Source: Halobacteria archaeon AArc-dxtr1 (GTDB lineage: Archaea > Halobacteriota > Halobacteria > Halobacteriales > Natrialbaceae). Taken from it: 64,000 nucleotides of DNA. The notes below the pieces were generated by a model. It ran no database searches and was not told the DNA's origin. It worked only from the letters and a program-made list of their open reading frames with translations. The stretch is from assembly GCA_025517425.1 (NCBI GenBank), contig JAOPJY010000003.1:81367-145366 (forward strand). Reading direction: 5' to 3'. This document shows, in pieces, positions 23,510 through 51,802 of the stretch. The number at the start of each line of letters is the position of its first letter. The stretch's first letter is position 1. Made by a program: the position numbers and the translations under genes.

Positions 23510-23582
23510 GGGCGTGTGGCCTAGCGGAGAGGGCAGAAGGTTCCTAACCTTCTGATCGCGGGTTCGAATCCCGTCACGCCCG
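23510..23582 (+). tRNA. tRNA-Arg (anticodon CCT)
   Basis: The cloverleaf is complete: acceptor GGGCGTG pairs with CACGCCC, anticodon stem GAAGG/CCTTC encloses TTCCTAA with anticodon CCT, and the T arm GCGGG TTCGAAT CCCGT follows. The discriminator base is G, and CCA is not encoded. Copies of its 3' end occur downstream. Confidence 0.95.
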
Positions 23583-23611: not shown

Positions 23612-23695
23612 CGGCATGACGGGATTCCTGAATCCTACCAGTCGCGCGCAGCGAAGCGAGCACGTCTGGGTTCGGTTCGAATCCCGTCACGCCCG
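23612..23695. repeat. Hairpin made from inverted and direct copies of the tRNA-Arg 3' end
   Basis: An inverted copy (TGACGGGATTC, about 23616-23626, with flanking GGC and a one-base mismatch) faces a direct 22-base exact copy of the tRNA-Arg 3' end at 23674-23695. The pair would form a stem of about 15 base pairs with a loop of about 50 bases. The loop includes CGCGCGCAGC at 23643 and AGCGAGCACGTCT ending at 23667, a segment also found behind the initiator tRNA at 51.6 kb. Confidence 0.8.
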
Positions 23696-51185: not shown

Positions 51186-51249
51186 CACGAAACCCGCATC
51201 AGGCGTCCGAATCACAACCCTTAACTGTGGAACCGGGTTACGATCTGGT

Positions 51250-51324
51250 AGCGGGATGGGATAGCCAGGAGATTCCGGCGGGCTCATAACCCGCAGATCG
51301 GTAGTTCAAATCTACCTCCCGCTA
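51250..51324 (+). tRNA. Initiator tRNA-Met (anticodon CAT)
   Basis: The 75-base gene has acceptor AGCGGGA/TCCCGCT, the anticodon stem GCGGG/CCCGC around CTCATAA and the T arm GGTAG TTCAAAT CTACC. The A1 start, the GGG/CCC pairs in the anticodon stem and the overall sequence fit archaeal initiator tRNA. CCA is not encoded. Confidence 0.93.
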
Positions 51325-51802
51325 TGTTTTGGCGCGAACAAGTTCGTGAGCGTCACCCATAGCACAGTGGTAGTTTGAACCAGGGAGCAGTTCTGCTGCG
51401 ACCGTGGTTCAAATCTACCTCCCGCTACTTTTCATGGATTCAAACGCGAGCGAGGAGTGAAACGACGAGTGAGTGCTGAATCCGTGAAAAGACGACGAGT
51501 GGATTTGAAGTAGACCACGAGCGGCCGAAGGGAGCGACGTGGGCATAGTTCAAATCTACCTCCCGCTATGTTTTGGCGCGAACAACTTCGTGAGCGCCAC
51601 CCATAGCACAGTGGTGATTTGAACGAGAGAAGACGCGCGCAGCAGAGCGAGCACGTCTTCGCGTCGTTCAAATCTACCCACACTGCTTCCATCCACTGTC
51701 AAACATCGAACGACGCGTCCAAAATCGGTACACTGGGACCGTAACTAAAACCGGTCCAACGTTGGCAACCGTTTATGTGCAATCGCTCCCTCTACTATTT
51801 CG
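51325..51802. other. Gene-free region behind the initiator tRNA
   Basis: Apart from the hairpin array listed separately (51368-51681), this region carries no gene. The promoter of the formamidase gene lies at its end; a TATA-like TTTATGTG is at about 51771-51778. Confidence 0.7.
51368..51681. repeat. Three hairpins built from the initiator tRNA 3' end
   Basis: Each unit has an inverted copy of the T-arm sequence (GGTAG-TTTGAAC type) followed by a spacer and a direct copy (GTTCAAATCTACC plus, in the first two, TCCCGCTA). Direct copies lie at 51407-51427, 51546-51568 and 51666-51678. The second extends downstream to repeat about 79 bases (51302-51380 with 51546-51624). The last spacer contains CGCGCGCAGC from 51634 and AGCGAGCACGTCT to 51658, shared with the tRNA-Arg locus. 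Confidence 0.85.

Follow-up and report, generated by a model that had tools for sequence, protein, structure and literature searches.

We identified a short palindromic cassette that is non-coding, lies directly 3' of tRNA genes, matches the tRNA that it adjoins, and is found nearly throughout the class Halobacteria. It resembles att and attC sites yet belongs to none of the families against which it was tested, and it appears to be a module for recombination (or for the 3' end) that is linked to tRNA genes and has so far not been described. Because the cassette has no match in Rfam and no description in the open literature, and because the nearest known kinds of element either fail on a tested feature or differ from it in their generally known properties, we regard it as a new type of element, with its novelty judged on the open literature and its mechanism being one that we infer. 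In the Rfam scans, which covered five loci, the tRNA alone was matched, except that the window (i.e., the whole 64,000-nt stretch of DNA that was analyzed) gave the tRNA plus a sub-threshold upstream match. The literature search was made among open-access papers.

A longer example of the cassette is found in the window behind the gene for tRNA-Met(CAT), which has the GGG/CCC anticodon stem and the A1-T72 of an initiator tRNA (iMet). This tRNA is followed by three tandem units, which measure 103, 141, and about 110 nt. A unit opens with a stem-loop (SL1) and a short linker; next come an inverted T-arm copy, which is the 5' arm of a second stem-loop (SL2), a loop particular to the unit, and a direct copy of tRNA nt 53-73. 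The source of the copies is nt 53-73 of the initiator tRNA (51304-51324, GTTCAAATCTACCTCCCGCTA). The features of the locus are as follows, where R1 is a covariance model of SL2.

51250..51324, + strand, initiator tRNA-Met(CAT) (ARAGORN, 51249-51325; Rfam RF00005, 51250-51324)
51330..51355, + strand, unit 1 SL1 (TGGCGC..GCGTCA) with a tandem G-A mismatch, directly 3' of the tRNA
51369..51380, - strand, unit 1 inverted T-arm copy (GGTAGTTTGAAC), the 5' arm of SL2
51367..51419, + strand, unit 1 SL2, loop class A (CAGGGAG..CGACCGTG); R1 E value of 2e-9, training member of R1
51407..51427, + strand, direct copy 1 of tRNA nt 53-73, complete
51428..51491, + strand, unit 2 SL1, long type (CTTTTCATGGATTCA..TGAATCCGTGAAAAG), with a relative in Natrinema (L162)
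51499..51510, - strand, unit 2 inverted T-arm copy (GTGGATTTGAAG)
51497..51560, + strand, unit 2 SL2, loop class B; R1 E value of 1.8e-12, training member
51548..51568, + strand, direct copy 2 of tRNA nt 53-73, complete
51574..51599, + strand, unit 3 SL1, a near-copy of unit 1 SL1 with two differences (family D1, 93%)
51611..51624, - strand, unit 3 inverted T-arm copy (GTGGTGATTTGAAC)
51611..51678, + strand, unit 3 SL2, loop class B; R1 E value of 4.8e-11, training member
51666..51678, + strand, direct copy 3, truncated after tRNA nt 65

The first-pass annotation had described three hairpins behind tRNA-Met(CAT) that combine inverted and direct T-arm copies, and these are present. The sequence GTTCAAATC is repeated at 51407, 51548, and 51666, in addition to the tRNA's own copy at 51304, and GATTTGAAC occurs five times in the window, always at the iMet locus (0.23 occurrences expected). 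The last direct copy is truncated, as had been noted, and ends after GTTCAAATCTACC. A reported duplication of 79 bases was likewise confirmed, with 93% identity between the 85-nt segments 51302-51386 and 51546-51630. As a minor correction, the units are not all alike; the tail, SL1, and inverted arm, but not the loop, are common to units 1 and 3, and unit 2 has a different SL1. Folding of the region had been proposed as a check, and the folding energy of the array lies far beyond that of 100 shuffled sequences both as DNA (z score of -7.9) and as RNA (z score of -10.6), with 0 of 100 shuffles folding as well.

The array is not special to the initiator tRNA; it is an extended case of a general feature. 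The genome of the same organism was covered by searches and by individual sequence stretches. We read the 3' flanks of 41 of its tRNA genes, and many of these contain, within 150 nt, an exact or near-exact copy of the tRNA's own nt 53-73, with the same two hairpins between the tRNA and the direct copy. The copy is ungapped at 18 tRNAs, and 13 of these 18 also have an inverted 8-mer (≤1 mismatch). The covariance model R1, which was built from an alignment of 22 SL2 hairpins, gave 27 matches at an E value of ≤0.1 in this genome, located at 23 different tRNA genes of about 43. The matched genes include the intron-bearing tRNA-Trp and tRNA-Pro(CGG), both of which are absent from the tRNA list, and the whole genome contains no match away from tRNA genes at this threshold. 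The second tRNA of the window also has a unit, which lies outside the training set of R1 and ends in a complete cognate direct copy (about 23675-23695).

23510..23582, + strand, tRNA-Arg(CCT)
23618..23687, + strand, SL2 of the tRNA-Arg(CCT) unit, more degenerate; R1 E value of 1.4e-4

In an even draw from the class, R1 matched at least 286 of 292 Halobacteria genomes and at least 75 of 76 genera at an E value of ≤1e-4; the tally of 286 is a lower bound, with 17 candidates scored per genome. A draw of 197 genomes from the phylum included 32 with R1 matches, all of them Halobacteria, and none of the non-Halobacteria genomes in this draw was matched. The genome of the window itself probably belongs to Natrialbaceae, as it falls into one family with G070, in which the iMet region is identical to that of Halovivax asiaticus. 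The top foreign loci that were fetched (29 of 29) all lie immediately behind a tRNA that is encoded on the same strand. These results lend good support to the suggestion that a dedicated family of palindromic repeats captures the ends of tRNAs, given that the same architecture is found at 23 tRNA genes of one genome and across nearly all genomes of the class, always beside a tRNA where this was checked.

The units are uniform in size (median, 118 nt; cassette range, about 100 to 145 bp) and contain no gene. SL1 starts at the discriminator base and has a tandem G-A mismatch, according to our reading of the sequences. SL2 is found with two classes of loop, i.e., class A (arm-N-A-GGGAG...CGACC-G-T-N'-GTTC) and class B (arm-N-A-GA-stem...stem-NC-G-T-N'-GTTC). 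In both patterns, N and N' (alignment columns 15 and 74) covary as C-G, T-A, A-T, and G-C, and the 3' arm carries an unpaired G (column 72). The covariation score of SL2 in the R1 alignment is 0.304, compared with 0.175 (standard deviation, 0.015) in shuffles, and it falls when the structure is slid along the alignment. Changes on both sides of a pair were observed in 47 cells of the SL2 alignment, versus 21.3 in shuffles.

Both the direct copy and the inverted arm follow the sequence of the adjacent tRNA. Across 121 units from many tRNAs and genomes, the identity of the direct copy to this tRNA is 0.96 to 1.00 at nt 53-65 and 0.87 to 0.94 at nt 66-73. Outside the copy, it is 0.17 to 0.67 upstream of position 52 and 0.22 to 0.60 downstream, where it fades over about ten positions; the value of 0.79 at position 52 itself probably reflects a G that is common on both sides. 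All copies found are cognate, and no cassette was seen to have moved between different tRNAs. The foreign loci within the set of 121 units were picked by R1, and unbiased figures therefore come from iMet loci picked by their tRNA alone. A direct copy is present in 61 of these 114 loci and missing from the other 53. An inverted T-loop (≤1 mismatch, within 110 nt) occurs in 47 of the 61 loci with a copy, compared with 6 of the 53 without one and 4% of dinucleotide shuffles, so the idea that the inverted copies are chance matches fails.

Pairing between the inverted arm and the copy averages 3.57 of 5 T-stem positions, versus 2.69 (standard deviation, 0.07) when arms are permuted among units. This tracking persists within isoacceptors (3.59 versus 3.34; 0/5000 permutations), and the match of the pairing to the cognate tRNA is conserved across species. 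We also considered a direct rather than inverted duplication of the 5' strand of the T-stem. At positions where the two T-stem strands of the tRNA itself form a wobble or a mismatch, we counted 19 cases of an arm complementary to the copy, 12 of an arm equal to the tRNA 5' strand, and 10 of neither kind (indels in the arm account for some of these 10), which speaks mostly, not cleanly, against a direct duplication. The arm thus behaves mostly as an inverted copy. In the T-stem region, G-T opposites exceed A-C opposites (28/106 versus 44/377; p = 3e-4), and a T stands opposite G53 in 64 of 115 units, suggesting that folding takes place in the tRNA-sense strand, which would fit RNA as well as single-stranded DNA.

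Comparison of iMet loci revealed that units come and go. In a clean pair of filled and empty sites, the sequence immediately downstream of the tRNA at the locus that lacks a given unit aligns, from its very first base, with the sequence immediately downstream of the direct copy at the other locus. Such pairs were found in Haloferax (L004 and L134 versus L190 and L171; L118 and L176 versus L193) and in Halorubrum (L161 versus L167 and L203), and a less clean one was found in Natrialba (L117 versus L210). In both comparisons of a two-unit with a one-unit array, the extra unit is the tRNA-proximal one, such multi-unit comparisons being few. Two strains of Haloferax gibbonsii, each with a flank that matches L190, have different units at iMet, namely, alpha in L004 and beta in L134. 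Alpha is 98% identical to unit 1 of L118 and beta is 95% identical to its unit 2. The second iMet locus in Haloferax carries either alpha-beta (L118 and L176) or beta alone (L193), and identities between the loci are 98 to 100% for copies of alpha and 93 to 96% for copies of beta. Since alpha and beta are combined differently at the two iMet loci, we conclude that units move, at the least from one locus of a tRNA to another locus of that tRNA. These comparisons prove a turnover of units, short of a gain from outside. The pattern of presence and absence at Halorubrum iMet looks like repeated losses, and the exact loss of a unit can come about by homologous recombination between the 21-nt repeats. 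Across genomes, SL1 similarity is above the cut in 7.9% of pairs of units with the same tRNA, compared with 0.8% of pairs with different tRNAs. A spread of loop sequences mainly within a genome was also considered and was dropped, as there is no same-genome excess.

We favor, at somewhat less than even confidence, a mechanism in which a gene-free, tRNA-cognate cassette is acquired and removed through recombination at the T-loop. Our reasons for this reading are that the copies begin sharply at G53, that the tRNA stays intact, that units turn over, and that the hairpin is structured. Crossover would take place at the T-loop, from G53 onward. The incoming cassette would supply nt 53-73 and leave the tRNA intact, and the old tRNA 3' end would be pushed downstream and become the direct copy. 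The recombination site would be SL2, which, like attC in integrons, is an imperfect hairpin and whose 3' arm has an unpaired G. Cassettes would pass from one locus to another of the same tRNA, since the tRNA would go on working only with a cognate 3' end. Repeated insertion and excision at the T arm had been put forward in the first-pass annotation. The sharply bounded copies of nt 53-73 and the clean filled and empty sites fit this proposal, but the exact losses could be plain homologous recombination of the 21-nt repeats. Taken together with the repeat-family alternative, the first-pass interpretation is partly supported.

The same hairpins could instead work at the RNA level, with SL1 and SL2 being transcribed and serving in termination, 3' processing, or protection of read-through transcripts, and with selection on RNA pairing keeping the inverted arm in match with the copied 3' end. 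The position of the unit downstream of the tRNA and on its strand at every locus checked, the start of SL1 at the discriminator with T-rich sequence, and the stability of the RNA fold (z score of -10.6) are in keeping with such an element, and the excess of G-T over A-C together with the T that faces G53 would suit it as well, although the excess is a modest one that base composition may account for. No unit is present at nearly half of the tRNA genes, and no copy at 53 of the 114 iMet loci, and the unit is therefore dispensable. An RNA element also leaves unexplained the tandem arrays and the exact copy of the acceptor part, where SL2 pairing is partial, and we consider it rather unlikely. 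We likewise regard as unlikely an explanation that does without a dedicated system, in which an old duplication of the tRNA 3' end is kept by homologous recombination; unequal crossover would resize the arrays, gene conversion by the tRNA would keep the direct copy exact, and hairpin-templated (quasi-palindrome) correction would keep the arm complementary. Haloarchaea are polyploid and recombine freely, units of the same tRNA share SL1 across genomes at the rates given above, and exact unit loss fits repeats of 21 nt, all of which counts for this explanation. Conversion tracts should end raggedly, however, whereas the boundary at nt 53 is sharp across many tRNAs. Both loop classes have features that are conserved across tRNAs (CAGGGAG..CGACCGTG in class A; the unpaired G of the 3' arm), and a restriction to one class combined with near ubiquity is hard to understand unless there is a function or an agent dedicated to the unit.

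Integration typically leaves copies of tRNA 3' ends behind, and archaeal integrases favor these ends (PMC8371274), so the units could also be scars of integrated viruses or plasmids, with the direct copy representing an attR left after the loss of the element body. The uniform size of the units and the recurrence of the same two hairpins at 23 tRNAs of one genome make this origin highly improbable. No element body or integrase adjoins the units; none of the units in this genome has an integrase gene beside it, and 0 of its 6 Phage_integrase (PF00589) genes are near a tRNA or a unit. In searches of limited sensitivity, no units were recognized in viral contigs or phage records. In phage records, the array matched only tRNA-Met genes or tRNA-like stretches. 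Viral contigs were searched with the exact class A loop pattern, which had 12 matches in IMG/VR. None of these has T-arm copies, those that were read into are bacterial-phage-type coding sequence, and we take the matches to be due to chance.

For recombination at the T-loop, which remains our preferred reading, an enzyme would be needed, and archaeal tyrosine recombinases are known to target both T-stem loops and the 3' ends of tRNAs, with a preference for the latter (PMC8371274). One tyrosine recombinase of 345 amino acids (G000:C1:789012-790046; L316) was found in 59 of the 59 Halobacteria genomes searched, usually as a single copy with 57 to 71% identity (45% in one genome), including genomes without a detected unit. 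The search for phage relatives returned one remote match and no close one. This universal recombinase may be an ordinary chromosomal Xer enzyme, and it is only a candidate for the cassette enzyme. Counting against the preferred reading are the lack of an integrase gene beside any unit in this genome, the absence of recognized units from viral contigs and phage records in searches of limited sensitivity, and the finding of cognate copies alone. More speculative, and in our judgment doubtful, is a class-wide integron-like system in which a host recombinase, possibly this one, would recognize the fold of single-stranded T-arm hairpins and move cassettes into and out of T-loops, thereby restoring the 3' ends of tRNAs and perhaps protecting tRNA genes against integrating viruses.

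Among known systems, integrons share with the cassette an imperfect hairpin that is conserved in structure and has an unpaired base on one arm. Integron cassette arrays contain one imperfect palindrome per unit, with conservation of its arms instead of its sequence, and the same is true of the array described here. The tRNA-proximal position of the extra unit, seen in the few pairs that can be compared, is a further likeness. The core of the cassette is GTTCRAATC, not the GTTRRRY of attC, and its arms, unlike those of attC, match the neighboring tRNA. In addition, the cassette lacks an open reading frame, and no integrase, which an integron would have in cis together with attI, was found beside the units. 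Another parallel is Escherichia coli tyrT, which is followed by tandem 178-bp repeats that end in 19 bp of the tRNA-Tyr 3' end and are associated with RtT RNA. There, too, tandem units behind a tRNA each end in a copy of its 3' end. To our knowledge, this repeat is confined to one locus of one tRNA and has no inverted copy, and RtT was not matched in the loci scanned with Rfam.

With the att repeats in tRNA genes (SSV, SNJ2, and pNOB8 types), the cassette has in common the exact downstream copy of the 3' end, the intact tRNA, and the T-stem loop or 3' end as target (PMC8371274), and its copy has a sharp 5' limit inside the tRNA (the nt 53-73 plateau in 121 units), as in att scars. It differs from them in being a gene-free unit of ~118 nt with no element body or integrase beside it, in the paired inverted copy within a conserved hairpin, in its tandem arrays, and in its presence at about half of the tRNAs of one genome. 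REP and BIME palindromes and the MITE, PATE, and SMR elements of haloarchaea (PMC3119063) resemble the cassette in that they are short, non-coding palindromic repeats. Such small mobile repeats are dispersed, whereas all matches in this genome (E value of ≤0.1) adjoin tRNA genes. The arms of the cassette are tRNA-specific, and no terminal inverted repeats or link to a transposase was seen. A REP element has a fixed foot that its copies share and a RAYT transposase; the foot of the cassette is a tRNA-specific T-stem.

If our description of the cassette is true, then, throughout an entire archaeal class, about every second tRNA gene has a feature that had escaped notice. It raises the questions of what copies the tRNA 3' ends, which enzyme moves the cassettes, and whether tRNA ends and viral integration at tRNA genes are affected. 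Even if plain homologous recombination were to account for the units, they would be an unusual natural example of a gene and a palindrome that evolve in concert. The model R1 makes the cassette easy to annotate.

Several minor features were observed at these loci. Many SL1 and SL2 loops contain GCGAGCGAAGCGAGC stretches, which are frequent in haloarchaea and fold into stems that contain tandem G-A mismatches and enclose a GAA loop. These stems recall the d(GCGAAGC) mini-hairpin, which is very stable, and the likeness is a possible hint at single-stranded DNA. Behind tRNA-Gly(CCC), locus L008 has a small array of another kind, in which two copies of the tRNA end (~20 nt; TTCTGCTTCCGGACGGCGCA) stand head to tail and hairpins are lacking. 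One inserted T-loop base is found at the same place in direct copies of the Lys, Phe, Thr, Trp, and Pro tRNAs, which read GTTCA[C/T]AATC or GTTCGTAATC. These copies (at L015, L016, L020, L067, L068, L265, L291, and L307) are for the most part otherwise perfect or near-perfect, and the same T-loop insertion is found for Lys, Phe, and Thr in other genomes.
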